DNA from: Candidatus Woesearchaeota archaeon
GTDB lineage: Archaea > Nanobdellota > Nanobdellia > Woesearchaeales > ARS49
NCBI GenBank assembly: GCA_016203305.1
Contig: JACQMY010000019.1
Coordinates: forward strand, 1 to 37,268
DNA length: 37,268 bases
Direction of reading: 5' to 3'
Below the pieces are notes generated by a model that saw only the letters and a program-made list of their open reading frames with translations, did not search any database and was not told the origin of the DNA. Numbering within the stretch: position 1 is the first letter of the stretch; each line of letters opens with the position of its first letter. Both the position numbers and the translations under genes were made by a program. Shown here in pieces: positions 3,013 to 24,153 of the stretch.

Positions 3013-3515
3013 ACCAAGTGTTTATTCGCATACAACCATCTAAAACACAAATCAAGCTGAGGATGAATCTTCTCGCCACTGTTTACCAGCTCCATAGCAT
3101 CATCCATGCTGAAAAACTGGCCAGAAGCCACCTCACCATCCTTAAAATCAATCCCCGAATCAGCGAAGGCGATGAATAGCTCGATAAATCTATCGTGACC
3201 ATTAATCACAAAATTCGTCCGATGGACCTTCTTCACAGGAACTTCAAGTCCCAGTTCTTCCTTCAACTCGCGCATAGCAGCACGCTCATAAGACTCACCA
3301 GAACGCACATGGCCACCGGCAGAAGTGCAATAAAACCCAGGTAAGTACGACTTACTATCAGAACGCTTCTGAAAGTAAACCTCTCCAGTCATTGGATGAA
3401 TCACGAACACGTGCACGATACGATGAAGAAGCTTCTTCTCGTAAAGCTCAGACATGTCAGTTTGACCAACCACATTGTCGTTCGCGTCAACAACATCTAA
3501 AACTTCACTGCTCAT
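2946..3515 (-). CDS. NUDIX hydrolase
   Basis: Nudix box GGHVRSGESYERAAMRELKEELG; likely start MSSEVL at 3515 (ORF open to 3533); C-terminal ~21 aa lie in the repeat array. Confidence 0.88.
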   Translation of the reverse strand: MSSEVLDVVDANDNVVGQTDMSELYEKKLLHRIVHVFVIHPMTGEVYFQKRSDSKSYLPGFYCTSAGGHVRSGESYERAAMRELKEELGLEVPVKKVHRTNFVINGHDRFIELFIAFADSGIDFKDGEVASGQFFSMDDAMELVNSGEKIHPQLDLCFRWLYANKHLVSNSQQPIFVLPSSPYNLRPNT

Positions 3516-4425
3516 CCATAACCAGTCGTGCAACGTTATTCGTCAACGTTATCATTGTCCTGAAAAGTTCAGCAACGCCTGCTGGAAGCTCACCTGCCTC
3601 TTTCAACAAAGCTTCACGATCTAACGCAACAGCGTCGGCAAGCTTCTTGTCCTTAGTGAAGTAAGCTTTCATCACGTCAACATAAGACTTTTCAACACGG
3701 CCAAACACAGTCTTCAACTTGTCCTTCTTTTTCTCCTTAGCCAAGTACTCAACAAGCTGTTTTGCAGCATCTGCAAAATTCTCCAAGTTAATAGTCAAAT
3801 AATAATAACTCAAAACCTTCTCGTTCGTCAATTGGAACAAGTCAGCAATCTGCTTGTTCGAAAAAGCAGACTTAAGCAAACGCAACAACAAAAAGTACGC
3901 ACGGTTGACCTCATAATCACGAACCTGCACGCTCTGAGCAAGACTCGGATCGTCGAGAGCAGCAACAGAATCCTGAATCATGCTACGAACAAGCATGTCC
4001 ATCCTGCGCAAAGTCTTGTCAACACTAATCTCCTTCAAGTTCAACAAGTCCTTCGCAATAATGCTCTTGTTGGTTTGATCAGCAACTTCCAAAGCAACAA
4101 AATCATGCAACATCTTACGAATGTCCTTAGTCTTCTCAGTAATACTGTCGCCTGACAAAACAATCGTGTTATAATTGTTAATGTAAGCACTTGTTATCTC
4201 ACGGCCGATAGTACTCATTTCCTTGTCATCAACAGGAATCACGATTTCCTTTGCAGGAGCCTGCTCGTCAGGCTTGGACTCAGGAGTCACGACAAGCTCC
4301 TTGTCTCCCCGCTCATGCAAATAAACCAAGTCTCCTTTTTTCAGTTTATGACGATCAAGCCACTCTTTAGGAAGAGAAATAGTATGCGACGCTTGTCCCG
4401 CCTTTACCAATCTGCGAATAATCAT
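3505..4425 (-). CDS. SpoVT/AbrB-domain + PhoU-like regulator
   Basis: MIIRRLVKAGQASHTISLPKEWLDRHKLKKGDLV AbrB-like N-terminus followed by helical PhoU-like domain. Confidence 0.85.
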   Translation of the reverse strand: MIIRRLVKAGQASHTISLPKEWLDRHKLKKGDLVYLHERGDKELVVTPESKPDEQAPAKEIVIPVDDKEMSTIGREITSAYINNYNTIVLSGDSITEKTKDIRKMLHDFVALEVADQTNKSIIAKDLLNLKEISVDKTLRRMDMLVRSMIQDSVAALDDPSLAQSVQVRDYEVNRAYFLLLRLLKSAFSNKQIADLFQLTNEKVLSYYYLTINLENFADAAKQLVEYLAKEKKKDKLKTVFGRVEKSYVDVMKAYFTKDKKLADAVALDREALLKEAGELPAGVAELFRTMITLTNNVARLVMDEQ

Positions 4426-6040: not shown

Positions 6041-9000
6041 TTACTGCACTGAAACCAATCTTACCTTGAAGTGCAAGGTCTTATTGCCAAGCGGGTGAGC
6101 AACAGGATCAACACCATAACCCTCTTCAGGCGGAACAACGATGGTCCTCGTCTGGCCAGCAGTCATGTTCTCAATACGCCTCTCAAAACCAGCAATCAAC
6201 TTCCCTTCCCCAAACACAAACTCAAGAGGCTTTGTCACTTCAGAAGTCAGCAAAGTATCAGAAGTCACGTTCAAAGACTGCCAATTAACAATGCTAGAAT
6301 CAAACACTCGGTCATTATCAGTCCAGCCAATATAGTCAACCTTCAACAAAGCACCAGATTCAACCTTTGTCTTAGGCTTGAGGTCCTCAGGAACAAAAGG
6401 CTCAAGACCATTCCAGTCAACCTTCCAAACAGAAATCTTACCACCAAACAACTGGTTATCTTCAGCGAAATGACGGAAATTACGCAAGCCAAGCCCGTTC
6501 ATGTAGAACAGCCGCGTAAACATGCTCTCTGAAAGATCCTTCACAGCCGGCATGGCAACCATTTCGCGACCACGCGGCCACATCAAAACAACCAAACCAG
6601 CATTACCCCCATTCAACTTTGTCCTGGAAACATTCCCCTTCTTATCATAAGCAACAAGCTCGCCAGCAGAAGCCAAACCCTGGCTGACCTGAATCAAAGC
6701 AGACTTACCAGAAGCGTTAATAGCTACACTCCCACACCTCAACAAACCAGCATCAGGACCACAAGAAGCAGGCTCGCCAATATAACCATTCCACGGACTA
6801 ATCCATTGGTTAGCCTCCTCCTCAGAGCCAATACCAACAGCATGATTATAAATCTCACCTGCGTACTCCTCAGTCCAGTTAAACCGCTTCGCCATCTGAG
6901 GAACAGCATCGCCCTCAGGCAAGTCCTTCCACTTTATCCATACTTCAGCACGCTCAAAATCCCACATACCAAAATGGCTCCAGACACCAGCCTTGCCAAC
7001 CATGTCAGCACTAGTGATGAAAAAATCCTCAGGAGCATCACAATGAGTGAACAACAAAACATTCTCTGGAACACCCTCGCGCTTTGCTACTTTACGAGCA
7101 GACTCTTTGTCCAGCATGATCAACTCCTCAACAATCTGAACAGAACGGTAATGATCCTGAGTCACGTTAAACACGGCATCAAACGCGTTATTCGCACCAC
7201 AATCCAACATGCGCAAAATACCAACAGCCTCCTGCTCACTCGAAGTCTGCAAAGCACGACCAATCCAGTGCGCCTGAGGAGAGTTCTGCGTCGAACCATC
7301 AAACGTCACAGCACGATCAGAAATGTACTTGAAATGATGACCAAAGTCCCACCAAGAATTAACAATAGCATCAGGCGTAGACTTATCCTTAATCTGAGTC
7401 ATAACATTCCACCAAGCATCATTAACAATAGGAACATCACGAGTTGATTCCGCAAAAGAAACCTTGACCATATGAGGACCGGCCTGAACAGGACCAATAA
7501 TGGCAAGGCCGAGTAACACGATCAACAAAGCGCCAGTCAACTGCTTGCTTATATGAAGTTGTCGCTCGCCAAAACCACCCAAACGCTGATACAACAAGCC
7601 AGCAGCAGAACCAAAAGCAACAGCAAACGCAGGACCAATAAGCAAAATAAAACGAACACCCTTCAAAGAAGCATAAGTAGTTCCTAAAAACCACAAAGAC
7701 AACAACACAGTGTAAGTAACGTCAAACTTTCCATGCTCGTCAACCCTCATCAACAACAAAACAAGACCTAAAAGCGCAATGCCAAACATCAACGTGCCAC
7801 CAACAGACGCAACCACATCATCAAACCTGCTAGGATTCAGCTCAGCAACAGTAGTGTAAACGTTCGGCCACAAGTCAGGACGCGCAGCATTTTTGATAGA
7901 AGTAAAGGAAATAGCTCCCTGGAAACCACTCTCCAAAAAAGGACCAAGACCAATGAACAACCAGCCGAATAGCAGGCAAGCAGCAAAAAATACTCCGCCG
8001 ATAACCAAAAACTTACGCAAGTGGAAATTATGCAAAGCCTGGCGTATATTCTGTTTGCGCACGTGCAAAAACAACTCCAAAACGAATGCAACTGCCAAAG
8101 CAGCCAGGATAAAATCAAACAAATACCACCAGCCCGACCAAAAACGAGTATACAAAGCAATCGAAAAACCAGTTAACAAAGCAAAAACACCCTGCGCTTT
8201 CCAAGACTTTGCAGCCAGACCCTCACACAAAAGCCAAACAACAAGCAACGGGAAAAACACCTGGTAAATATCAGTATCAGCATGACCAAACAAAGTCCTG
8301 CCAGTAATCGCAGGCAAAACAGCAAGAGCAGTAGCGGCAAAAAAACCACCCAAAGGACCAGAAACCCTATTAGCAACCAAAAACGCCAAAATAATCGACA
8401 AAAACATGAACACAATAGGAAGATAATTTGCAGCCTCCATCACAGTAATGTTCTTGTCAAAGACCGAAAATACGAAGTATAAAGCAGCCATAACGTGCGG
8501 GTGCCAAGAAGGATCAACAGGCAAGCCAACAGGAGCATACATATGATTGTCCCAAGCCTCGCCATTCCGCAACTCATCATACACCTGGCCTTTTTCAACA
8601 ATATTCCTAGCTAAACGCAAGTAAAAATACGGGTCAATATCAGGCATGTAATTATAAGTCACACCATCACTCTCATACTGGAAATGCTTCTTAATCTCGG
8701 AAGTCAATCTGCTCTTTTCGCTCTCAAACTGAACACCAGCCTCAGAACGCAACTTCTTCACCAAATCATCAATAACACGAGCACGATTCGCATCAGGCAA
8801 ATTAGGATACTGCTGGCCAGCCAAAACAGTAGCCTGCTGGCGCAAGAAGTTATCAACACTCGAACCAGCAGTAGCATCTGCAAACGGCAAGTCCTGCGTC
8901 AACATGCGCATGTGCAAACCGCCCCACGGATACGTGCCACTACCATTCGGCAAAAACTGTAAAACAACAACCAACAACAAAGCTAACAAAACAGCGTGAC

Positions 9001-9181
9001 CTTTTGCAAAAGAAACAGCTTTCCTCATGTAAGGAGCCACCTTTTTTAGGGCATACAATGCCCCCTGGCTGTCAGAAACGATAGACTCATTATTCGACGT
9101 TCGTTGTTCGTTATTCGAATTCGGTGTTTCAGCAGATGAATTCCCTGACTCCTTTTCGTCCATAACACGCACAACCAGCAA
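6041..9181 (-). CDS. aglB: Archaeal oligosaccharyltransferase STT3/AglB with C-terminal FKBP-type peptidyl-prolyl isomerase domain
   Basis: 1046 aa; multi-TM, DPYFYLRLARN, HADTDIYQVFFP, WWDFGHHFKYISDRAVTFDG; C-terminal VDYIGWTDNDRVFDSS...PLEFVFGEGKLIAGFERRIENMTAGQTRTIVVPPEEGYG. Confidence 0.92.
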   Translation of the reverse strand: MLVVRVMDEKESGNSSAETPNSNNEQRTSNNESIVSDSQGALYALKKVAPYMRKAVSFAKGHAVLLALLLVVVLQFLPNGSGTYPWGGLHMRMLTQDLPFADATAGSSVDNFLRQQATVLAGQQYPNLPDANRARVIDDLVKKLRSEAGVQFESEKSRLTSEIKKHFQYESDGVTYNYMPDIDPYFYLRLARNIVEKGQVYDELRNGEAWDNHMYAPVGLPVDPSWHPHVMAALYFVFSVFDKNITVMEAANYLPIVFMFLSIILAFLVANRVSGPLGGFFAATALAVLPAITGRTLFGHADTDIYQVFFPLLVVWLLCEGLAAKSWKAQGVFALLTGFSIALYTRFWSGWWYLFDFILAALAVAFVLELFLHVRKQNIRQALHNFHLRKFLVIGGVFFAACLLFGWLFIGLGPFLESGFQGAISFTSIKNAARPDLWPNVYTTVAELNPSRFDDVVASVGGTLMFGIALLGLVLLLMRVDEHGKFDVTYTVLLSLWFLGTTYASLKGVRFILLIGPAFAVAFGSAAGLLYQRLGGFGERQLHISKQLTGALLIVLLGLAIIGPVQAGPHMVKVSFAESTRDVPIVNDAWWNVMTQIKDKSTPDAIVNSWWDFGHHFKYISDRAVTFDGSTQNSPQAHWIGRALQTSSEQEAVGILRMLDCGANNAFDAVFNVTQDHYRSVQIVEELIMLDKESARKVAKREGVPENVLLFTHCDAPEDFFITSADMVGKAGVWSHFGMWDFERAEVWIKWKDLPEGDAVPQMAKRFNWTEEYAGEIYNHAVGIGSEEEANQWISPWNGYIGEPASCGPDAGLLRCGSVAINASGKSALIQVSQGLASAGELVAYDKKGNVSRTKLNGGNAGLVVLMWPRGREMVAMPAVKDLSESMFTRLFYMNGLGLRNFRHFAEDNQLFGGKISVWKVDWNGLEPFVPEDLKPKTKVESGALLKVDYIGWTDNDRVFDSSIVNWQSLNVTSDTLLTSEVTKPLEFVFGEGKLIAGFERRIENMTAGQTRTIVVPPEEGYGVDPVAHPLGNKTLHFKVRLVSVQ

Positions 9182-10494: not shown

Positions 10495-13269
10495 TTAATC
10501 TCTTTCGATCACGCCGTCAACCAGGGTTTTCGCCTCATCCTGGTATGCAGAATTGTCACGGTCAGCATTATCATCAAAATGCTGGTAACGCAACTCGCCC
10601 AAACGCCTCAACGTATCCAAGTAAACAGCATCATCATCACCCTGAAGCTTACTATCAAAGTAAGCACGGCGCAGCCGACCAACTTCACGCAAGTGCCACT
10701 CCTCACGCACGCGCATCCTCGTTGACAATGCGACATCCTCCCTGTTCCCCAAAGCATCAGCCTCAGTATGCGCTTCAGTCCTCAAATGATCTGCTTCCTG
10801 AAGGCAAACCGCGCGCCTCGTCAAAGGAGTATTACGCAAATAATCCTGCTCTGGAACATCCAACACTTGATCTAGACTTGCCCGTTCTTCAGTCAAACGC
10901 CTATCACGCTCAGTCTCGGTCATCCTCCTCAAAACAGTATCGCGATAAATCAAACGAACCCGGGCACCATACTTTTGAACAGCACGGAATGCCTGCTCAG
11001 TACGCTCACCACTGGTCTCATCACGCTTTGTTTCCGCATCAACCACAAAACGACGCGCGAGCTCCCGCAGCGCCTCAGCACTCTCTGGACGAGGAACGCC
11101 CAACTGCAAAGACGCTTCAACAGCCACAACACTAGGCGCATATTCAAACGCCAACTGCACATGCTCAGCAGCCTCGGCAAACCTATAGTCCTGGACAGCA
11201 GCACGATACCTCGGCATGAGTTCCTCTGCACGCTTCATGTTCTGCTCGCGCGTCAGCAGAGCATCCAAGTTCCTGCGTACCCCTTCAAGTTGTGCGCGGG
11301 CATCAGCACTCTCAGCACTTCTAGCACGACGAACCCAAGCATCAACCTCTGAAGAAGCACTGCCCGCCTGAGCGATAGCTGCTTCGATAGGCGCAACGTT
11401 CGCAGAATGCACACGCGCAAGATCAGCAGACAAACCATCATATTGACCTCTAGCGACGGCTGCGACATCCATTGCTTCACGACGGATTCGGCGCGTCTCG
11501 CCCCACTGGAAAAGACCATACACTGTGGCAGCAATTCCAAGCACACCTGTAGCTATTACTGTTGCGAACTTTCCGGGATTACGCTTCATCCAACGATAGG
11601 TCGGACCTCCTTCCAGCCATTCTTCTAGTGCTTTCGAAACATCATCCATTGATTGGTATCGATCCTTCTGCTCTTTTGACATCATCTTCGAGATAATCAT
11701 CGAAAGTCCCTTATCAACACCTGGATTCACCACGTGCGCAGGTTTTAGCGGAGCTTCGATTACACGCTTCAACAGCTCGACGAGATCCTTTGCTTTTTCA
11801 GCATGCTGATAGGGCAAATGCCCTGCAAGTATACGGTACATCAACGCGCCCAACTGATACACATCAGTCGTTGCATTAATCCGCTCGTTATCACCCATTG
11901 CCTGCTCGGGCGCCATATACTGCGGAGTTCCGATAAGCGCGCCCCTGATATTCTTCCTTTCCTCCTCTGTCAACTCCTGCTGAACGAGCAATGCCAAACC
12001 AAAATCCACCACCATCGGGTGTTTGTGATATTCGTCCTTGAACATTATATTCTCCGGCTTAATATCACGGTGCACCAATCCACTCTTGTGTGCTTCACTA
12101 AATGCCTGCGCAAGAATCATCCCCAACTTTGCAGTGTCACGTTCAGTTAGTTCGTCCCCACCTCTCAAGTACTGCTTTGGAGAATCGTCTTCAGGGATAA
12201 CAATCGCTCTTGCCATGGCTGGCACAAAACGAGAAGTGCGTCTGCTAGAATCCGTCTTGACGGCATGTCCTTCCTGCTTCTCAAGCAACTTCTCCAAATC
12301 TCCACCTGGTAAGTATTCCATCGCGATAACTTTCAATCCATTCCATTCAATGACATCGTGCACGTGACAAATGTTTGGGTGGCTTACTTCACACATCGCT
12401 CGTGCCTCGCCCAAGAACTTCTGTTCCAAATCAGGATCCTTCTGTTCATTCATCAAGAACTTTAAAGCGGCAGGTCTTTCTAACGTTTTGTGTTTTGCCA
12501 AGTAAACGACACCCATTCCTCCCCTCTTCACATACGCGTGCGGCTTCCGACGCTTGCCGTCCTCTTCCTTTGGTCCGTTCGCATCTATAATTAGGTAGTT
12601 CCCAATGGTCTCGCCACCCTGCAAGAGCTCCGCAGGAGATGGCTGCCGTGGTTCAGGCTTCTGCGTCCCCTTCGGAGCAGGAACATCAACTGTAGGACTA
12701 TGCGCGGCAGGACCCTCTGAATCAATTATGGTTTGTGCTTCACCTTCAACCCTCTTAGGAATTCTTGACGGTTGATTCACGGTCGGCATTGTAGAATCAG
12801 CATTCTCATCCTTAACGACTTGAGTAATAGGCGGGCCTGTTGGAGCAGCCGGTACAAAACCCTCGCTCAATAAGACCGGAGGCTCAAAATCTTCTAATCC
12901 ATCAATTTTTCCATCCAAACCAGTTGGTGCAGAGGTTGCAGGCGCGCCAGGAGCAGGAAGGTTAATTGTCGCGTCGAGAGCGGGTGGTGCAACATGTGCT
13001 TGTGGTTGAAAAGGCTCTGGAGCACCGCCAAGAAGTCGTGCTGCCATTTCTGCATAAGGATCGGCAGCAGTAGCTGGACTTGGATCAGGAATTGGGCCAA
13101 TAAAATCAGGGTCGTGAATACTTGGTAGCTGGCCAACAATAAAACGCTCGCCTTTTGGAACAACTGGTGCTGCTGGATCTGGAGCTGCTTCTGGTGGCAA
13201 ATCTACATATCCTTCTGGTTCGTATTCTGCAAGAAAGCCCAATGGATCGTCTGGCATAAGCTGCGGCAA
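10495..13269 (-). CDS. Bacterial-type (PknB-like) Ser/Thr protein kinase with TM and C-terminal coiled-coil ectodomain
   Basis: GGMGVVYLAKH, AALKFL, LVHRDIKPENIMF, VVDFGLALL, GTPQYMAPEQ; TM FATVIATGVLGIAATVYGLFQW; long Pro/Ala N-terminal linker. Confidence 0.93.
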   Translation of the reverse strand: MPQLMPDDPLGFLAEYEPEGYVDLPPEAAPDPAAPVVPKGERFIVGQLPSIHDPDFIGPIPDPSPATAADPYAEMAARLLGGAPEPFQPQAHVAPPALDATINLPAPGAPATSAPTGLDGKIDGLEDFEPPVLLSEGFVPAAPTGPPITQVVKDENADSTMPTVNQPSRIPKRVEGEAQTIIDSEGPAAHSPTVDVPAPKGTQKPEPRQPSPAELLQGGETIGNYLIIDANGPKEEDGKRRKPHAYVKRGGMGVVYLAKHKTLERPAALKFLMNEQKDPDLEQKFLGEARAMCEVSHPNICHVHDVIEWNGLKVIAMEYLPGGDLEKLLEKQEGHAVKTDSSRRTSRFVPAMARAIVIPEDDSPKQYLRGGDELTERDTAKLGMILAQAFSEAHKSGLVHRDIKPENIMFKDEYHKHPMVVDFGLALLVQQELTEEERKNIRGALIGTPQYMAPEQAMGDNERINATTDVYQLGALMYRILAGHLPYQHAEKAKDLVELLKRVIEAPLKPAHVVNPGVDKGLSMIISKMMSKEQKDRYQSMDDVSKALEEWLEGGPTYRWMKRNPGKFATVIATGVLGIAATVYGLFQWGETRRIRREAMDVAAVARGQYDGLSADLARVHSANVAPIEAAIAQAGSASSEVDAWVRRARSAESADARAQLEGVRRNLDALLTREQNMKRAEELMPRYRAAVQDYRFAEAAEHVQLAFEYAPSVVAVEASLQLGVPRPESAEALRELARRFVVDAETKRDETSGERTEQAFRAVQKYGARVRLIYRDTVLRRMTETERDRRLTEERASLDQVLDVPEQDYLRNTPLTRRAVCLQEADHLRTEAHTEADALGNREDVALSTRMRVREEWHLREVGRLRRAYFDSKLQGDDDAVYLDTLRRLGELRYQHFDDNADRDNSAYQDEAKTLVDGVIERD

Positions 13270-13359: not shown

Positions 13360-14136
13360 ATGCAACTCTTTAGTCTTCAAGGACGCGTGCGTGCAGCAAT
13401 TCTCGCACTAGGTATTGGATTAATGGGGTGCAGTTGGGGAGAACAATTACGCACACTGCGCAAAGATTATGATGATTCCCAAGCAGCTCACACTGCATTT
13501 GTAACCAGCAGTGTGGCGTTCATACAAAGCGCGTCGAGAACAATTGCTCGTCTAGACGAAGAAAAAGCAGCACTAGAAAGAGAACTGGCAACAGTCAAGA
13601 TAACAGTCGGCTATGTTGAGCTCAGAGACGATGAAGCCCTTCATAGGAGAATCATGGAAGACTACCGTACAGCATTTAAACGCGAAGTAAGGCCAGAACT
13701 GGACGCAATGGGAAAAGCCAGACGGGAAACCGTAGACTTCGTTGGCACCACAGGCTTGGCACTTGAAGAGTTCAGACGACTCATAGGAGAAGCGGCAGGA
13801 CCACCTGATGGAAGACCAACAGGCATTTACCAAGACAGAGTATTAGACGGAGAACAGAGCGGATTAATTGCAGGACTAACTGGCCGTGTCGAATCCATAG
13901 AACGCACGGACAGAAACGAAAGAGAACGACAATTAAGAAGCTGGCGCATGTTCTACCAAAACAACCAAGCAGCACGCACACTGGTTGAAGAACTACGCGC
14001 ATACATGGTGGACCCAGCACACAACCGCGACCAACGCGCAGCATACCTCACAACCTGGTGCAGACGAAGAGACACATTATATAGAGAACATTACAGAGCA
14101 CGCGGGCGAGAATTCCCCGGCGGAGGGCCAAACTAA
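13360..14136 (+). CDS. Predicted coiled-coil lipoprotein
   Basis: N-terminal signal with lipobox-like LMGC; Arg/Glu-rich helical body. Confidence 0.7.
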   Translation: MQLFSLQGRVRAAILALGIGLMGCSWGEQLRTLRKDYDDSQAAHTAFVTSSVAFIQSASRTIARLDEEKAALERELATVKITVGYVELRDDEALHRRIMEDYRTAFKREVRPELDAMGKARRETVDFVGTTGLALEEFRRLIGEAAGPPDGRPTGIYQDRVLDGEQSGLIAGLTGRVESIERTDRNERERQLRSWRMFYQNNQAARTLVEELRAYMVDPAHNRDQRAAYLTTWCRRRDTLYREHYRARGREFPGGGPN

Positions 14137-14137
14137 C

Positions 14138-14887
14138 ATGATGGGCTATCTGGCAAATATAGCACGACGTGCGTATGAATCAGTAACCGCACGAGTGTCA
14201 TCACGACGCGCATCAGGCATACTAGTAATTCCATTCCTCGGAGGACTGGCAGCGTGCGTAAGCACAGCAACACACGACGCGCTCAAAACAAGACATGGCC
14301 AGACTGTTGCAGACCTCACAAGTGCAATTGCAACATTGAGCTCAGCAGTGAAAACAATCGGTCGTCTTGAAAGCGAAATGGGCACTTTACGCAGACGACA
14401 AGCAGAACAAGACCAAAGATCAGGAGCATTTGCGTACGGACTAACACTGCTTGAAGACCAACATAATCGAGACCTTGCAGACGTCTATGGACATGTAACT
14501 CGAGAGGATGCAGGGCTTGCAGGAGAAACTGCGGCAGCAGAAGGACGCGCAACAGCACGAGCAGAACAAGCAGAGCGTGATGCAAGAGCATATGCAGACA
14601 GATTAGACGTTGCAGGACGCGCATACACAAATGGAACAGTCGCAGGGCTAGACAGCGAAAGCATAGCACGAGTTGGTTCTGTTACTGCAGTCAGGGACGC
14701 AGCAGCAACAGCACTTGACGCTTACAAAAGAGAAGAAGCAGCACGTGAAGCAGAACAAAACAGACGTCTTGGTGCAGCAGAAGCAGGCATCCGTGCGGTT
14801 GGACGACCTGAACCAGAACGCGCACCGCCTCCAGATCCTAACGACGCATTAAACCGTTTTGTCCGCGAAAGAAGCGGCCAGAAATGA
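14138..14887 (+). CDS. Predicted coiled-coil lipoprotein, operonic with the preceding gene
   Basis: ATG at 14138 just after TAA; signal with lipobox-like LAAC; Ala/Arg/Glu-rich helical body (ORF track start 13985 is upstream of this). Confidence 0.68.
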   Translation: MMGYLANIARRAYESVTARVSSRRASGILVIPFLGGLAACVSTATHDALKTRHGQTVADLTSAIATLSSAVKTIGRLESEMGTLRRRQAEQDQRSGAFAYGLTLLEDQHNRDLADVYGHVTREDAGLAGETAAAEGRATARAEQAERDARAYADRLDVAGRAYTNGTVAGLDSESIARVGSVTAVRDAAATALDAYKREEAAREAEQNRRLGAAEAGIRAVGRPEPERAPPPDPNDALNRFVRERSGQK

Positions 14888-14940
14888 AGCATTTGGGGAC
14901 AAATAAGTGAGTTAACTTCTGAGTAGTAACATATAGAAAA

Positions 14941-14950
14941 GCTTAAATAG
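14941..14950 (+). promoter_or_regulatory. TATA-like element for 14997 gene
   Basis: gcttaaatag; SD cgggggt about 8 nt before the ATG. Confidence 0.5.
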
Positions 14951-14996
14951 AAGTATTCATGATAACAGTGTATTAATACCACTCGGGGGTAACAAA

Positions 14997-16175
14997 ATGA
15001 TCAAAGATGCTTTTTCCAGCGTATACCAAACAGTTCGTGACAGAATTCTTCTTCCAACAGCACTTGCAGTAGGCATGTCAACACCAGTAATCGCACAAGA
15101 ATTCCCACTACCAGGCAGAGATCCAGTGCCAAGACCAACTGCGCCGGCACCAGCAGATACTGCAAATCCACCACGCAATCCAGCAAACGATCGCATAAGC
15201 CTCGATGACAACTTGCGAAGGCCGCATTTTGGACTCCTAAGCGAAAGAGGAATAAACAGTGTACAATTAAGAGGATTCGGAGACCTTGACTCAGCAGTCG
15301 GAGACCTTGATGTTGCACTCAGGTTAAGACCAGCAGACAGAATACATCTAGGACTATTTGCAGGAGCAGACGGCGGAGCACACAACCTGGGAGAAGACAA
15401 CAAATTTGATTTCGCACACGGCAATGTTTCATTCCAACCAGGAGTAAGCATCGTCGGCGGAAGAGACGGCAGATGGTTCTACGGAAGCCCAGAACTTCTT
15501 GTTTACGGCACAGCAGGATTTGAGTACACCAACAGATTGGGCAACCCAGTAGATTTGAAAGACGGAACCTTCAACCTCGGCGGCGGAGCACTACTAATCG
15601 GCGGACCATTCCAACTAAAACTAGACGGAACAGTGCAACTTGATGCAGGTCTAGGCCAAAGCGCAGTAAGAGATGGAAGAGGAAGACGACTAAGCCTTGC
15701 AGTCGACGGTTACACCCTTGACGCTCAAGCAAGCCTTGACCTTGGACATGGAAATGACGTCGGACTAGCACTACTCGCAAACGGCGGTTTCCGTATGCAA
15801 CGACGCAGGCGCGAAGGAATGCGAAACAACCAGCCAGCAGAAGAAGTCGAAACAAGCACGCAACACCGCGCAGGCGGAGCAATCGTGCTATACTGGCCAA
15901 GCGGCAACGTACGCCTAGGCGGCAGTTACACTGGCGGCGAACAAGAAAAAGAATTCGAAGGAGCAGGATTCCGCGACGGCCAAGGAAGACAAAGACCAGG
16001 CAGAAGCCAAACGCTAAACATATACCGAGTAAACGGCAGATTGTACCAAGTTGTAAATGAGAGCGATGGCGGCGCGTTGGCATTCTATGTTGACTTGGGA
16101 TACGAGCACAACAGACACGCACACAAGCCAGACAATGCAACAGCAGAAGCAGGCATAGTCTTGCGCTTCAAATAA
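14997..16175 (+). CDS. Secreted beta-rich protein resembling an outer-membrane beta-barrel
   Basis: Signal peptide ending near VIAQEF; alternating amphipathic strands (AGGAIVLYWPSGNVRLGGSYTGG, GALAFYVDLGYEHN); C-terminal strand AEAGIVLRFK. Confidence 0.6.
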   Translation: MIKDAFSSVYQTVRDRILLPTALAVGMSTPVIAQEFPLPGRDPVPRPTAPAPADTANPPRNPANDRISLDDNLRRPHFGLLSERGINSVQLRGFGDLDSAVGDLDVALRLRPADRIHLGLFAGADGGAHNLGEDNKFDFAHGNVSFQPGVSIVGGRDGRWFYGSPELLVYGTAGFEYTNRLGNPVDLKDGTFNLGGGALLIGGPFQLKLDGTVQLDAGLGQSAVRDGRGRRLSLAVDGYTLDAQASLDLGHGNDVGLALLANGGFRMQRRRREGMRNNQPAEEVETSTQHRAGGAIVLYWPSGNVRLGGSYTGGEQEKEFEGAGFRDGQGRQRPGRSQTLNIYRVNGRLYQVVNESDGGALAFYVDLGYEHNRHAHKPDNATAEAGIVLRFK

Positions 16176-16285: not shown

Positions 16286-18775
16286 ATGGATCCAGCAAAA
16301 ACAGTAATTTTCGGCGCACTCAAATTTGATAGTCATGGAAATCTAGTTCTTGACGACAGAATCCTTGCAGAACCAAGCAGATCAACAGACAGAAAAGTTC
16401 CTCTCTTCCCAGATCTTTGGGGCAAAGACAGAGAACGCGAAGGCAACAAATACGTTTCAAACGAACAATGGAATGCACGTCACAGCCCAGATTGGAACCA
16501 AAAAATGTCAGAAGACGAAACACTAGCAATGCGCGTACGTCAAGTACAAGACGCAGCACTCCGAAACAGAGACCTCAAAGGACGCCTCGTAGACTACGCA
16601 TGTGATATGGTTTATTCAGCTGCACCAGTTGATCCAGTAGCGCCTATTGCCCCTGCACCTGCGGGACCAGCAGTTCCGAGTTTTGGATTAGCACCTCAAG
16701 TAGCTCCAGCAGCACCAGTTGCACCAGCAGCACCTGCACCAGTTCCAGATCCAGCAGCGCCAAAAGTTGGCGACCAAGTAGCAATTGATGCTGTCGCAGA
16801 AGGACTCAAAGACGTTAAGGGTGATGTAAAAGAAATTAAGACCGTTATTGAAGGCCTGGCAGAAAAACTAGTCAAGGATGCAAAAGAGGCACTAGGCGAA
16901 GGTCAAAACGCACCACCAAAGGTCACTCAGCCAGCCGGAAAACCAGAAGATGCGCCAATCAAACTACCGGTTCAGCCTCCAGCAGCGCCGGGCGACCAGC
17001 CAATCAAGATCATGCCAGTGCCAGGACCAGGAAAACCTCCTGCAGCAGGACAACCACCTGCACAGCCACCGGCAGCACCGCCAGGGGGAGTCATACCACC
17101 ATTTGTTCCACCTCCGCCAGGAGTATTACCTCCAGTTCCACCAGTGCCACCATTCGTGCCAGGAGTGCTACCGCCACGACAACCGTCAAACAGCGGTTGC
17201 CTTGCAGCCTTAATCGCAACCGCAGTAGCGGTTCCATTATCAGTAGTTGGATACCAAATGCTAACGGCGCCAAGCACTCCGCCAGTAGCACCAGCACCAC
17301 CAGTGCCGCCTGTTCTGCCGGTGCCACCAGTTGCAAGCGTTGCAGACGTAACAACCCTGAGCAGGGCAATACAATACAGAAACAACATCCAGAAAGACAC
17401 TTCGCCAAACGCAGTAAGGCAGCAAGCAGCCAACGCGCTCGGCGACGGACAACTAAGCCTTGAACAACGCGTAGGAGTGCTAAGCTTTGCAATCAGCACA
17501 CAACCAGCAAACAGCCCACACGTGACAGGCTACTTTAACATGGCCGTACAAATAGTCAACGGAGTTCCTGTTTCAACGCCACAGTTCATACACGGATTGG
17601 CAGAAGTAAGAGACCTAGTCATGGTTGACCACTTCAAAGCACTCCGCGGAAACGACGTTAGAAAATGGGCAGCGGCGTACAGCACAGTCCCAGGAATAAC
17701 AGTATTCCAAGATGGAAGCAACTTCCTAGTAGACCTAACAGGCAGTAACACAAACCCGTCCAGCATGCCAAACGGAGAAGTCTACATAAGAACCAACGGC
17801 GCAGAATGGGAAGTCACAACCGGAGCAGACGGAACCCGCAACAGAACCGGAATGGTAAGACTGCCAGCAGTCAACATGGCACGAACCGGCAGCATCGCGT
17901 ACGTCACAACCGGCACGTTCGCAAACGGGCAAACAGCAGGCGGAGGCTTTGTAGAAAGCACACGCCTAGCAAACATGCCAGGAACGACAGCATACCGAGA
18001 AGAACTCGAAAGAACAGTCGGCGGCACAACACTTGGCGGCAAACGCATACAACGCTTGTTCGAAGGACAACTACTTGGAGAAAACAACCAAGAAATAGCA
18101 GGCAAAAATGCAAGCCCGGCAAAAAGCGACCTTTTCGCACAACTCGAAGACGGAACAGTAGTTTACGTCGGCAGAGAACGCGCAGAACAAGCACGAGACA
18201 TGCTACAAGCCAGAGAAGCATACGCAGACTCTGACAATGGAAGATTCGCACTCTTGGCAAGAGAATACCAACGCAGAGCACGTGAAGGCAGGCTAGCAGA
18301 TGATTTCACTGCACGCGCAAAAGCAGCAGTAACAGTCTACCTAAGAAGCGACGAAGGAGAAGGCATAACAGTCTATCTCGGCGTGCGCGAAGTAAGAGCA
18401 AGCGGCAGACTGCGCGAAATGGGCATCTCGAGACCACTCGTGCGCATGACAGCGGCAAACACAGCACGCGCAGTAGAACAGGGCTTACTGCCTGTTGACA
18501 AAGCTCTTGAAATGCTCGCAGAGCAGCCAACCAACTTTGTAGCAGGAGCAGTAGACGCAGAAGGCGAGAGACGCGTAACAGATGCTCAATACGATGCAGA
18601 ACTCGATCGCAACTTCGCAAGCCTAGGACTAGTACGCGGCTATGATGCACTTGTAAGAAGCGGACTCATGCAACGCGCAGCAGACGGACAAGTCGTGCGC
18701 GCACCAGCAGACATTCACCGAGAGATACTAGTTGCAGGACAGCTTGGACTTTACGGCCGCGCCGGAAGACGATGA
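16286..18775 (+). CDS. Large Pro/Ala-rich single-TM protein with unknown C-terminal extracytoplasmic domain
   Basis: SD ggaggg before ATG 16286 (ORF track start 16250); Pro-rich linkers; TM GCLAALIATAVAVPLSVVGYQML. Confidence 0.75.
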   Translation: MDPAKTVIFGALKFDSHGNLVLDDRILAEPSRSTDRKVPLFPDLWGKDREREGNKYVSNEQWNARHSPDWNQKMSEDETLAMRVRQVQDAALRNRDLKGRLVDYACDMVYSAAPVDPVAPIAPAPAGPAVPSFGLAPQVAPAAPVAPAAPAPVPDPAAPKVGDQVAIDAVAEGLKDVKGDVKEIKTVIEGLAEKLVKDAKEALGEGQNAPPKVTQPAGKPEDAPIKLPVQPPAAPGDQPIKIMPVPGPGKPPAAGQPPAQPPAAPPGGVIPPFVPPPPGVLPPVPPVPPFVPGVLPPRQPSNSGCLAALIATAVAVPLSVVGYQMLTAPSTPPVAPAPPVPPVLPVPPVASVADVTTLSRAIQYRNNIQKDTSPNAVRQQAANALGDGQLSLEQRVGVLSFAISTQPANSPHVTGYFNMAVQIVNGVPVSTPQFIHGLAEVRDLVMVDHFKALRGNDVRKWAAAYSTVPGITVFQDGSNFLVDLTGSNTNPSSMPNGEVYIRTNGAEWEVTTGADGTRNRTGMVRLPAVNMARTGSIAYVTTGTFANGQTAGGGFVESTRLANMPGTTAYREELERTVGGTTLGGKRIQRLFEGQLLGENNQEIAGKNASPAKSDLFAQLEDGTVVYVGRERAEQARDMLQAREAYADSDNGRFALLAREYQRRAREGRLADDFTARAKAAVTVYLRSDEGEGITVYLGVREVRASGRLREMGISRPLVRMTAANTARAVEQGLLPVDKALEMLAEQPTNFVAGAVDAEGERRVTDAQYDAELDRNFASLGLVRGYDALVRSGLMQRAADGQVVRAPADIHREILVAGQLGLYGRAGRR

Positions 18776-20361
18776 ACATAAAAAACGTCAAAACACTTTT
18801 TGTATTGTTGTTTTTACTAATCGCGCCCCTAGCAACAGCTGACGACTGGGGAGACTCAGGAAGTGCGGGCAGTGATTGGGGTGATTCAGGATCAGCAGGT
18901 AGCGACTGGGGCGATTCTGGCAGCGCAGGCAGCGACTGGGGAGACTCAGGATCAGCTGGAAGCGATTGGGGCGATTCTGGAAGTGCAGGCAGTGACTCAG
19001 GGGGATCCACTGACTGGGGCAATGACTGGAATTCAGGAGACAACGGAAACACTGATTTCGGCAATGACTGGAGCAATCCACCAGGCAGCGACTGGAACAA
19101 TGATCCGCAAGACAACCAAAACGATTGGACTCCGCAGCCACAAAACCCGCCACAGCCAACCAACAACGCGCCAGTTCTAGCATCAATAGGTAATAAAGCA
19201 GTCAACGAAGGACAATTCTTACAGTTCACAATCACGGCAACAGACGCAGACAACGACCCATTGACATTCACAGCAGCCAACATTCCAGCAGGAGCAAGTT
19301 TCTCAGGACAAACATTCAGCTGGACACCAGACCTGAGCCAAGCTGGTTCGTATACAGTAACATTCACAGTCGCTGACAGCAAAGGAGCAACAGACAGCGA
19401 AACCATACAAATAACCATATTCAATGTTGGCGATGTCCCGCCACCGCCTCCACCACCTCAGCCACAGCCAATAAACAACGTTCCAATTATTCTAACACAG
19501 CCGGTCACAGATGCAACTGTTGGAAGACCTTATACTTACCGCGTAATGGTATTTGACGCAGATGCAGATGCAATCAGGTTCTCACTCGAGCAAGCACCAG
19601 ACGGCATGGAAATAAACGACGTGTTCAGCAACGCAGTCGTGCTATGGGAAATAGTTGAAGAAGATGAACAAGAAGAATTCACGAGCCTTGCAGGAACAAC
19701 TTACTCAATCACACTCAATGATGTTGACGATGAAACTTGCGATGTTATAGTAAACGGCCAACGTTTCAACGCACAAGAAGGCTCTGATAATGTGCTTGCA
19801 GACAGAGCCAACTTTATTGTTTCATTCGCAAATGAAGACGACGATGAATGCTTCTTTTACATCAGAGACCCAAGAGTAACAGTAGCATTCCTTGACTGGG
19901 TGCCAAGCGGCAGACAGCGTGGAGAAAACCCAGTAACCCTTGCAGTCAGCGACGGTAAAGCAACAGTAAGGCAATCATTCACGATAAATGTAACTGTTGA
20001 CGCTTTTGTTACCGGCTCAAAAGACGAGCAGCCAGACATTGACAAGAACGTTCATGTTGCGACCATCGCGCTCCCAGACTATGCACAACAGGGAGAAACA
20101 ATTACAGTCACACTATCGTTTGAGAACGATGGAAATGACAAGCTTGACGACGTCAAAGCAAAAGTCACGATTCCAGAGCTAGGCATAAGGTCACCAAGCG
20201 TAGGGCCTATTGACATCCGCGTCCACAAAGACGTCAGCAGAACCTTGGTGCTCGAGATTCCAGAGGATGCAGAGCCAGGAACGTACACTGTTCGCGTCAC
20301 CATCGACGGGGACAGTGTACACAGGGTTATTCATCGAGAAATTGAAATCCTCGAGTATTAA
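18772..20361 (+). CDS. Secreted surface protein with DWGDSGSAGS repeats, Ig/cadherin-like (He_PIG-type) and CARDB-like domains
   Basis: Signal peptide; ATGA overlap with preceding gene; five identical decapeptides; NNAPVLASIGNKAVNEGQFLQFTITATDADNDPLTF. Confidence 0.82.
   Translation: MNIKNVKTLFVLLFLLIAPLATADDWGDSGSAGSDWGDSGSAGSDWGDSGSAGSDWGDSGSAGSDWGDSGSAGSDSGGSTDWGNDWNSGDNGNTDFGNDWSNPPGSDWNNDPQDNQNDWTPQPQNPPQPTNNAPVLASIGNKAVNEGQFLQFTITATDADNDPLTFTAANIPAGASFSGQTFSWTPDLSQAGSYTVTFTVADSKGATDSETIQITIFNVGDVPPPPPPPQPQPINNVPIILTQPVTDATVGRPYTYRVMVFDADADAIRFSLEQAPDGMEINDVFSNAVVLWEIVEEDEQEEFTSLAGTTYSITLNDVDDETCDVIVNGQRFNAQEGSDNVLADRANFIVSFANEDDDECFFYIRDPRVTVAFLDWVPSGRQRGENPVTLAVSDGKATVRQSFTINVTVDAFVTGSKDEQPDIDKNVHVATIALPDYAQQGETITVTLSFENDGNDKLDDVKAKVTIPELGIRSPSVGPIDIRVHKDVSRTLVLEIPEDAEPGTYTVRVTIDGDSVHRVIHREIEILEY
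18844..18993 (+). repeat. Five tandem 30-bp repeats encoding DWGDSGSAGS
   Basis: Read directly; copies begin at 18844, 18874, 18904, 18934, 18964. Confidence 0.95.
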
Positions 20362-20480: not shown

Positions 20481-21707
20481 ATGAAAGCAATTCACGCAAT
20501 CATCGCGGCAATGCTCGTTTTTGCAACAATAGTCTCTGCCGCAGCAGCAGAAGTACCAATTGACATCGATGAAGTAGAAATTGACGACACGGTTCTAGAT
20601 TCAGACAACGAAAACAGGCTAAGCCTCGAGCGTGGAGAAGAATACGAAGTCCGCGTAAGACTAACCCCCTACGCAGACGTTGACAACCTCGAAATCAGAG
20701 TCTTTATCGCAGGATACGAATTCAGCGACACAGAAGACATCGAAGACACAACCCCTCTTTTTGACGCAGAAGAAAACGTCACATACGTAAAAAAGCTCAA
20801 GATCAGAATACCGGATGAAGTAGAGCGCGATAACTACAAGTTAAGAGTAGTCTTCAGCGACCGATTCAACCAAGCACTAGTGGAAGAATTCAACCTCAAG
20901 ATAGACGTGCCGAGAAACGCGGTACGCATCGACGACGTAGTCTTCAACCCGAGCAATGCAGTACGCGCAGGAAGCGCATTGCTAGCAAAAGTCCGCATTG
21001 AAAACAAAGGAGAAAAGACACAGCAAGACGTCCGAGTAACAGTAAGCATACCGGGACTCGGCATCAGCGGCACACAATACATCGAAGAAATCGATGATGA
21101 AGACGAAGAGGAAGAAACAGAGGAAATATTCCTACGCATACCAAAGTGCGCAAAGCCAGGAACCTACGATGCACTAGTTGAAGTAGAATTCCTAAACAGG
21201 CACAAAAAAGTCAGCGAGCGCAAAACCATAACTGTGCTCGAAGACGACACGTGTGTAGAGAATAAGCAACAGACAAGCATAACGCTAGGAAACCAGCTGC
21301 AAAACGCGCAACCAGGACAAACAGTAGTTTATCCGGTCACCATAACAAACGCAGGAAGAACAAGCAAAACGTTCACCATAACAGTGCCAAGCACGGACTG
21401 GGCAAGCGTGACAATAACGCCAACCAGCACAATGGTAATGCCTGCAGGCCAAACGCAAACAGCATTTGTCAACGTTCAAGTTGGCGAAGAAGCACTTACT
21501 GGCGCGCATAGCATTGTAGCAACAGTGGCGAGCAAAGACAGCACACAACAGCTAACGCTCACCACGAACGTACAAGCAGCACCAACAAGCGCATCTGACG
21601 TACTTGAAGTAGTCCTCGTCATCCTTGTCGCACTCCTCGTAGTGCTGGGCGTCGTAATCGGCGTAGCACACTTGCGTGGCAAGGAACAGACGGAAAATTA
21701 CTACTAA
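20481..21707 (+). CDS. S-layer-like/CARDB-domain surface protein with C-terminal TM
   Basis: ATG 20481 after SD (ORF track start 20385); signal AAMLVFATIVSAAAAE; beta-rich ectodomains; TM VLEVVLVILVALLVVLGVVIGVAHL. Confidence 0.78.
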   Translation: MKAIHAIIAAMLVFATIVSAAAAEVPIDIDEVEIDDTVLDSDNENRLSLERGEEYEVRVRLTPYADVDNLEIRVFIAGYEFSDTEDIEDTTPLFDAEENVTYVKKLKIRIPDEVERDNYKLRVVFSDRFNQALVEEFNLKIDVPRNAVRIDDVVFNPSNAVRAGSALLAKVRIENKGEKTQQDVRVTVSIPGLGISGTQYIEEIDDEDEEEETEEIFLRIPKCAKPGTYDALVEVEFLNRHKKVSERKTITVLEDDTCVENKQQTSITLGNQLQNAQPGQTVVYPVTITNAGRTSKTFTITVPSTDWASVTITPTSTMVMPAGQTQTAFVNVQVGEEALTGAHSIVATVASKDSTQQLTLTTNVQAAPTSASDVLEVVLVILVALLVVLGVVIGVAHLRGKEQTENYY

Positions 21708-21711
21708 GGCA

Positions 21712-24153
21712 ATGCGTATGAAGCGCTACATTTTTTTATTCCTATCATTGCTCATTCTTACGAGCGTAAGCGCTGACTATAACGCATTCGGCGAAACAAA
21801 CCTGGCAGTTGAGCCATGCACGAGCCACAGCCGCAACATAACAATACAAAACCTAGACAACGAGCAGCGCGATTACGAAATCTCAGTTGACGGGTCAGCA
21901 TCAGACTTTGTAACGTTCAGCACTATAAATTTTGGTTTACAACCAAGCCAAGCAGCAATAATACAAACATTCTACGCAATACCATGTAGTGCGGCTCCTG
22001 ACACGTACAACCTAGACATATTCTTTAACGACGGAACAGACGAGAAAGTCCTCAGCCAAGAAATTCTAGTCAGCTTCCCAGACACGATAAACCTAACAAT
22101 CGAAACACAAAGCAACGTCATCCCTCCATGTGAAACAGCAACATATCCAATAACAGTAAACAACCCAGCAAACTTTACAGAACTCTACACAGTAGAAGCA
22201 GAAGGCCATCCTAACGTACACGTAGGCCAGCAAAACCTCGTCATACTCCCAAAACAAAGCAAAACCTTTGAAGTAAGCGTAACGCCAGATGACTGCACGC
22301 AATCAGGCAACTTTCCATTAACACTAACAATTGAAACCGAGAAAAGCAAGCAGCAAAAAGAGATCCCGCTTGAATTCATATTAACAGCCACGGACATCGC
22401 AGAACTCGCGCCAGGCATAAACACTATACGAACCGATTATGGAGACAACACAGCAGAGCTCACCATCCGAAACATAGGAGACAGACAAACAACATACACA
22501 CTAACAATAGATGGTCCAAGCTGGGCAAGTATCAGTCCAGGAACAGTAACACTAAAACCAGGCCAAAGCCTTGCACTCGCGTTACGGCTCACGCCTATAA
22601 ACGGCACACCTGAAGACAACCACCCGCTCACCCTTACAGCAAGCGTGCAAGAAACAGGAATAACATACACCAAAGAAATAATTCTGAAGCTAAAATCACC
22701 AACATTCTTCGAGAAAAACCCAACATTGACAATTCTTATCATAATAATAGCCATTGCACTAATTGTAGGAATAGTATTCCTGGCTCGCTACCTGCTCAGC
22801 TCACAGTTCAAAGAAACACTCGCGCGAATCAAACAAAAAATGGCTGAAAAAAGAGCAGCAAGGCAAGCACGAAGAGAGCAAGCAAGAAAAGAAAACGAAA
22901 AACGAAAAGCAGAAAAAGAAAAACAAAGAAAAGAAGAAGCAAAACGCAAAGAACAAGAACGAAAAGAACTTGAGCAAAAAGAAAAACTATCCAAAGAAAA
23001 ACGAGAACAAGAAGAACAAGCAAGAAAAGAACGCGAAGACAAAATAAAAGCACGATTGAAATCACAGGTTGAAAGCGAGTACCTCAAAGAATACCTTGTC
23101 GTTGCGCGCAAAGATATTATTACGGCAAGGAACAAAGGAAACCCGAAGAAAACAGCAACAATTGTCATAATACTGGCAATACTGGCACTTGCCACGCTAT
23201 TCTGGAGCTACCTTGCGCCAAACCTAACAAGCGTAGCAGTTGGAATAGTATTACTCTTAGCAATCGCTCTCACAAGACGCATAATCAGAACCAAAAAAAT
23301 AACTGTAAGATGGAAAATACTCCCCGCAGAAAAAACCGTAACACTAAAACTCTGGAAAAAAGGAATAACACAACTAGCAATAACTCCAGACAAGACAACC
23401 AAAAACCTCACGATAACAGTGCAAAAAAGGAAGCCAACAGTAGCACCTGCACAATATGTGTATCAAAGCTTCGGAATAGCAGCAAACGCATCTGTGAAGC
23501 TAGCACCAACACTTCGCGTAAGCAAAAAATGGCTAAAAAGCATAAACGCATTACCTGAAGATATAAGGTTTGGAGTGTACAGAAACAACACCTGGAAAAC
23601 AGTCCCTATTGAAAAAGTAGGAGAAGACAAACAATTCATACACTATACAGCACAAACAACAGCAGGAATGCACGCAATATATGCCAAAGTCAAGCCAAAA
23701 AAACCATCGCCACGCAGAAAAATTATTGCGGGCATAATCCTTCTAGCAGTACTTGCGGCAATTGCAGTAACATTAAACACTCCACAACCATTAGGAATAA
23801 TACCTCCACAAACATGGAAACAAGACACAGTACACGCGCTTGAGCTAAAATCATACTTCAAAGACCCGGATGGTGATTCGCTCAACTATAAGGCGACACC
23901 GACGCCACACATAACAGTAGACTTTGTTAACAGCAAAGCAGTGCTAACGCCTCAAAAAGGATGGAGCGGCGAAGAACAAACAAAATTCACCGCAGACGAC
24001 GACAAAGGAGGAGTCATAAGCAGCAACACGGTCTCGTTACGCGTTGTAAAAACACTGCTCCCGCTAGAATTCAAGCCAACGGCAACATTCCTGATCGCAA
24101 TACTGTTCATTCTAGTGCTCATCTGGTTGGCACGTTCACAAAAACAGAATTAA
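21712..24153 (+). CDS. Multi-domain membrane protein: NEW3/CARDB-like ectodomains, K/E/R-rich cytoplasmic coil, several TMs, PGF-pre-PGF-like and cadherin-like segments
   Basis: Signal peptide; TM IIIIAIALIVGIVFLARYLL followed by ~90 aa charged coil; further TMs; FKDPDGDSLNYKA cadherin-like segment; start 21712 or 21718. Confidence 0.75.
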   Translation: MRMKRYIFLFLSLLILTSVSADYNAFGETNLAVEPCTSHSRNITIQNLDNEQRDYEISVDGSASDFVTFSTINFGLQPSQAAIIQTFYAIPCSAAPDTYNLDIFFNDGTDEKVLSQEILVSFPDTINLTIETQSNVIPPCETATYPITVNNPANFTELYTVEAEGHPNVHVGQQNLVILPKQSKTFEVSVTPDDCTQSGNFPLTLTIETEKSKQQKEIPLEFILTATDIAELAPGINTIRTDYGDNTAELTIRNIGDRQTTYTLTIDGPSWASISPGTVTLKPGQSLALALRLTPINGTPEDNHPLTLTASVQETGITYTKEIILKLKSPTFFEKNPTLTILIIIIAIALIVGIVFLARYLLSSQFKETLARIKQKMAEKRAARQARREQARKENEKRKAEKEKQRKEEAKRKEQERKELEQKEKLSKEKREQEEQARKEREDKIKARLKSQVESEYLKEYLVVARKDIITARNKGNPKKTATIVIILAILALATLFWSYLAPNLTSVAVGIVLLLAIALTRRIIRTKKITVRWKILPAEKTVTLKLWKKGITQLAITPDKTTKNLTITVQKRKPTVAPAQYVYQSFGIAANASVKLAPTLRVSKKWLKSINALPEDIRFGVYRNNTWKTVPIEKVGEDKQFIHYTAQTTAGMHAIYAKVKPKKPSPRRKIIAGIILLAVLAAIAVTLNTPQPLGIIPPQTWKQDTVHALELKSYFKDPDGDSLNYKATPTPHITVDFVNSKAVLTPQKGWSGEEQTKFTADDDKGGVISSNTVSLRVVKTLLPLEFKPTATFLIAILFILVLIWLARSQKQN

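Follow-up and report, generated by a model that had tools for sequence, protein, structure and literature searches.

A predicted outer-membrane-type beta-barrel protein encoded at a conserved locus in one family of Woesearchaeota

Beta-barrel membrane proteins are found in bacteria, mitochondria and plastids, and we know of no archaeal member of the outer-membrane barrel fold. Porins were described as absent from archaea in a review from 2010 (PMC2910488), while archaea go unmentioned in a survey of 76 families of outer-membrane pores, which spans bacteria and organelles (PMC4827864). The question whether an archaeon can nevertheless encode such a protein is raised by an ORF on a stretch of 37,268 nucleotides (contig JACQMY010000019.1), hereafter the window, for which an earlier note had proposed a barrel-like protein in an archaeal genome. 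The archaeal origin was borne out: the source genome (G000; 1.13 Mb on 40 contigs, 100 % complete and 1.3 % contaminated) belongs to the Woesearchaeota, an archaeal phylum which is counted among the DPANN. Contamination or misassembly of the locus was rejected, since each of the 26 family genomes covered contains a homolog of its CARDB gene and the flanking synteny is kept wherever the locus was assembled.

The ORF, P0001 (14997..16175, + strand), is real; it encodes 392 amino acids, starts with ATG and contains no internal stop. By eye and from the sequence only, a TATA-like promoter element (AGCTTAAATAGAAG, 14940..14953, +) was recognized, whose TTAAATA lies about 54 bp upstream of the gene, as well as a Shine-Dalgarno-like GGGGGT (14985..14990, +) just ahead of the ATG, both at archaeal-style distances. 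The deduced protein begins with a signal peptide, read from the sequence as residues 1-34 (MIKDAFSSVYQTVRDRILLPTALAVGMSTPVIA) with cleavage before QE (...STPVIA/QE), followed by a Pro-rich linker of residues 35-84, the end of which is approximate, and by a Gly-rich (15 %), amphipathic beta region with the C-terminal end EAGIVLRFK, for which AF2 predicts 14 antiparallel strands between residues 88 and 391. The mature chain contains no Cys and hence lacks the lipobox Cys of Lgt/LspA lipoproteins. ORF, AF2 model, Foldseek matches, strand alternation and beta-signal together led us to class P0001 as a putative exported protein of the OMP barrel type.

The locus around P0001 comprises genes for AglB, a Ser/Thr kinase, lipobox proteins, the barrel-like protein, surface proteins with Ig, CARDB and FixG_C domains and a permease. 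Its flank is formed by AglB (STT3), an oligosaccharyltransferase with a fused C-terminal FKBP domain (6041..9181, -); FKBP-type prolyl isomerase tails of this kind are also visible on the AglB C-termini of several relatives. The PknB-like Ser/Thr kinase (10495..13269, -) has one TM segment and an extracytoplasmic C-terminal part, and a one-TM kinase of this type accompanies the barrel gene in the source genome, in G384 and in G012. The extracytoplasmic part of the window kinase is long, and to our knowledge PknB-like one-TM kinases with such a part are uncommon in archaea. Between kinase and P0001, two lipobox proteins are encoded. The first (LMGC; 13360..14136, +) is low in Gly and Pro and probably helical or coiled-coil; lipobox proteins occur at the same position in G384 and G012, with heptad z values of 5.0 and 4.6 in relatives and a weak 1.4 in the window. 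The second (LAAC; 14138..14887, +) is rich in Ala, Glu and Arg. Downstream of P0001 follow a Pro-rich one-TM protein with a homolog in G384 (16286..18775, +), an exported Ig-like (He_PIG) protein which is a conserved anchor of the locus (18772..20361, +), the CARDB/NPCBM_assoc protein with a C-terminal TM segment (20481..21707, +) and a large membrane protein whose beta domains resemble FixG_C (21718..24153, +). A shorter second copy of the CARDB protein is encoded at G000:C30:13070-13858 and in most members of the family.

Comparison of the locus between genomes revealed that, in most loci whose contig reaches upstream of the CARDB gene, the exported Ig-like protein lies there and is followed further upstream by a variable slot, with GGR and/or AglB as its border. 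In the source genome, in G384 (Candidatus Woesearchaeota of the same genus, contig QZIM01000023.1) and in G378, G012 and G040 this slot holds a barrel-like protein, usually together with lipobox proteins; in G277, G149 and G385 it holds sequence-unrelated proteins of similar character, which were not joined to the P0001 family by hhalign. In at least seven other relatives the assembled slot contains no protein of the barrel-like kind, so that the barrel is not universal in the family. A search of the 353 genomes of the order with the single sequence returned one homolog in G384, with 31 % identity, and another in G378, 35 % identical over 120 residues, and those of G040 and G012 were first located by their gene position. 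With a five-member profile, full-length members were found exclusively in the source genome, G384, G378, G012 and G040, all of one Woesearchaeota family, and the four relatives of P0001 always occupy the same place in the locus, beside AglB and surface-protein genes, a conserved position that speaks for the barrel reading. In the rest of the order, the profile gave only matches to the signal peptide region and one false match to the C-terminus in G449, where the locus has genes for glycosyltransferase- and methyltransferase-like proteins, and a phylum sample searched with the single P0001 sequence yielded no relatives. No bacterial homolog or donor appeared in a pattern scan of GTDB genomes, which is weak evidence because the scan needs exact peptide patterns. 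Phage origin was rejected: P0001 matches no phage or viral contig, and a viral fold library gave only weak OMP-like matches.

P0001 has no match in Pfam, in NCBIfam, among the PHROGs or among the sequences of the PDB, and no homology to a known OMP family was detected at the sequence level; the homologs returned nothing of note from the profile and PDB-sequence databases; Ig, PKD, CARDB and S-layer profiles, although present in the neighboring proteins, match neither P0001 nor its homologs.

The two-residue alternation of hydrophobicity in P0001 exceeds that of shuffled sequences (z=3.0, matched by 10 of 2000 shuffles), and the signal peptide with Gly-rich amphipathic beta strands behind it, described in the earlier note, is confirmed. 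All eight slot proteins alternate beyond their shuffles (z 1.8-5.4), the sequence-unrelated ones of G277, G149 and G385 likewise (z=3.7-5.1). However, soluble Ig/CARDB beta-sandwich neighbors alternate strongly as well (mean z about 2.2), and we therefore take alternation as a sign of amphipathic beta structure and not as proof of a barrel, and have downgraded it as a barrel test. The C-terminus is more specific. The last strand had been likened to the C-terminus of bacterial OMPs, and EAGIVLRF indeed fits the bacterial beta-signal, defined here as polar-x-G-x-x-hydrophobic-x-aromatic, with a chance of 0.9 % given the composition of the protein. Four of the eight slot proteins have such ends, P0001 and that of G040 exactly, those of G012 and G385 loosely, each with a chance of 0.4-1 %, while none of 90 assigned neighbor genes match. 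The four matches are not fully independent, since G385 was chosen partly by its look. In G385, a lipobox protein of 260 amino acids encoded after the barrel-like gene (3053-4147, -; L051) has the beta-signal-like end GMGIEWSF.

Structure prediction and fold comparison, both suggested by the earlier note, favored an outer-membrane-type barrel. For P0001, AF2 predicts 14 antiparallel strands with a mean pLDDT of 60.6 (mostly 74-88 from residue 231 onward) and a pTM of 0.58, a medium-confidence model from a shallow alignment of the eight slot proteins. A separate run for the divergent G012 homolog, which shares 18-23 % identity with the other members, also gave 14 strands (pLDDT 65.9, pTM 0.64), again at medium confidence and from a shallow alignment of five sequences. 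Both models show the even-numbered antiparallel meander of OMP barrels, and their matches to closed barrels suggest that the ring would be closed. Compared with the PDB by Foldseek, the G012 model has 173 matches at E<=0.001, nearly all of them bacterial outer-membrane barrels, headed by CymA (E=1.5e-8, TM 0.57/0.63) and followed by EstA, EspP, OmpG, BrkA and NalP. The best matches of the P0001 model are CymA, EspP and TonB-dependent receptors with a probability of 1.00 at E about 1e-3, none being below 0.001 and TM reaching just 0.27-0.51; because of these values the fold of the window protein leans partly on the better-modelled G012 homolog. The models, the dominance of OMP barrels among the Foldseek matches and the profile searches speak against a beta-sandwich, a propeller and an S-layer or adhesin family, the outcomes named beforehand as contrary to a barrel. 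Given the two divergent 14-strand models, their OMP-dominated matches and the beta-signal, the predicted fold is best explained as a barrel of the outer-membrane type.

The search for Omp85/BamA which the earlier note had recommended found Omp85 (PF01103) in none of the 26 family genomes, whereas the control was positive in seven bacteria, and neither POTRA nor TamB exceeded the cut-off in the same 26 genomes. Insertion would accordingly need another, Omp85-independent route. Furthermore, P0001 has a modest share of aromatic residues (8 %, with few Trp), and several of its strands show a weak hydrophobic face, so that a lipid-exposed belt is not obvious.

The undetected Omp85 and the modest aromatics are the main reasons why we keep as a serious, though rather unlikely, rival a barrel that is real and not in a membrane: an extracellular beta-barrel or curled sheet, anchored by lipid or linker, which binds ligands or surfaces and belongs to the glycosylated cell coat beside AglB and the Ig-like proteins. 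The weak hydrophobic faces, the lipobox anchor of the relatives together with the Pro-rich linker, and the neighboring Ig/CARDB surface proteins would all suit such a protein, but both models are 14-strand up-and-down meanders matching monomeric outer-membrane channels, and the C-termini resemble beta-signals. Clearly improbable is a pore or adhesin which a symbiotic Woesearchaeon sets into the membrane of its host, with the lipobox proteins tethering its own side. Cultivated DPANN archaea are contact-dependent ectosymbionts according to PMC11291902, and the slot proteins diverge fast (20-30 % identity), as interaction surfaces do; the loops of ordinary OMPs, however, typically diverge fast too, and this family has no known host or contact structure and, apart from Sec, no known secretion signal. 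Least probable of all is that the models mislead and that P0001 is an ordinary secreted protein of amphipathic beta structure with another fold (sandwich, propeller or repeat), as the shallow alignments, the medium pLDDT and the strongly alternating Ig/CARDB proteins would allow, since two divergent members modelled separately agree on strand number and OMP verdict and the Ig, adhesin and S-layer profiles are without match.

We consider it moderately probable that P0001 is an exported 14-strand up-and-down barrel of the outer-membrane type, native to one Woesearchaeota family and probably working as a pore or receptor of a bilayer that lies outside the cytoplasmic membrane. Gene, synteny, predicted fold and the undetectable Omp85 are supported by computation. 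The chain would be exported by Sec and its signal peptide cut by signal peptidase I, while the chains of relatives such as G012 and G378, which keep the lipobox Cys, would be cleaved by LspA after lipidation by Lgt. Outside the cytoplasmic membrane, the C-terminal approximately 300 residues would form a monomeric barrel of the size of CymA or OmpG behind a flexible N-terminal linker and, by analogy with these proteins, would provide an aqueous pore or a receptor in a lipid bilayer, likeliest the outer membrane of the cell itself and alternatively the membrane of a partner cell. We infer that the adjacent lipobox helical proteins could serve as spacers or tethers, comparable to the OmpM stalk, and that the one-pass kinase could be a sensor for the envelope. 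Points that count against the barrel reading are the medium-confidence models from eight and five sequences, the P0001 matches not below E=0.001, the undetected Omp85, POTRA and TamB, the modest aromatics with weak hydrophobic faces, and the relatives whose slot lacks a barrel-like protein; nor did we find electron microscopy of such cells.

Export signals assigned by eye are signal peptides in P0001, P0006 and the G040 member and lipobox signals in the members of G378, G012, G277 and G385, and these lipoboxes, together with Lgt and LspA in the family genomes, argue for the barrel reading. LspA exceeds the cut-off in 22 and Lgt in 23 of the 26 family genomes. In the source genome, the bacterial-type Lgt (G000:C2:42867-43577, L094), which bears HGGL and GRIGNFINGE segments, and LspA (G000:C22:37323-37703, L093) both pass the NCBIfam equivalog cut-offs. 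Homologs of bacterial lipoprotein biogenesis have not been identified in archaea according to PMC12186497, and Haloferax uses AliA/AliB instead of Lgt (PMC12186497). As a separate observation, 311 of the 353 genomes in the order carry Lgt, as do 171 of the 180 with good quality, which runs against a statement from 2026 that Lgt is absent from archaea (PMC13251419).

Among known systems, CymA, the cyclodextrin channel of Klebsiella oxytoca (4d51 and related entries), is the top Foldseek match of both models and of similar length. It is a monomeric outer-membrane barrel of 14 strands which is assembled by BamA; CymA sits in a bacterial outer membrane, and no sequence similarity to P0001 was detected. 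OmpG and the beta-domains of the autotransporters EspP, NalP and BrkA, up-and-down barrels of 12-14 strands, are the next-best fold matches, again with no detected sequence relation, and the autotransporters carry a passenger domain which P0001 lacks. NalP is also a lipoprotein. As in bacterial and haloarchaeal lipoproteins, lipobox signal peptides occur beside and within the P0001 family, with Lgt and LspA encoded. The tether-porins OmpM of Veillonella and SlpA of Deinococcus combine a barrel with an envelope stalk or tether function (PMC10628300, PMC9388160). In these, stalk and barrel form one chain which binds the cell wall, whereas at the P0001 locus the barrel and the helical lipobox proteins are encoded by separate adjacent genes and binding would be expected by analogy. 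Diderm archaea are listed in PMC8871954; the outer membrane of Ignicoccus, a lineage separate from the Woesearchaeota, is comparable in that a second membrane in an archaeon would depend on pores.

The fold itself is known; new are the archaeal lineage, the lack of sequence kin and the undetectable Omp85. Tentatively, and with somewhat more doubt than confidence, we envisage that this Woesearchaeota family possesses an archaeal counterpart of the diderm envelope, with native outer-membrane-type barrels inserted free of Omp85 into its own or a partner's membrane, lipobox-helical tethers and a partly bacterial-type lipoprotein pathway. If true, a native archaeal barrel family would pose the problem of barrel insertion in the absence of Omp85, and would serve either to mark a second membrane in DPANN archaea or as a candidate for the molecule by which these archaea contact their hosts.
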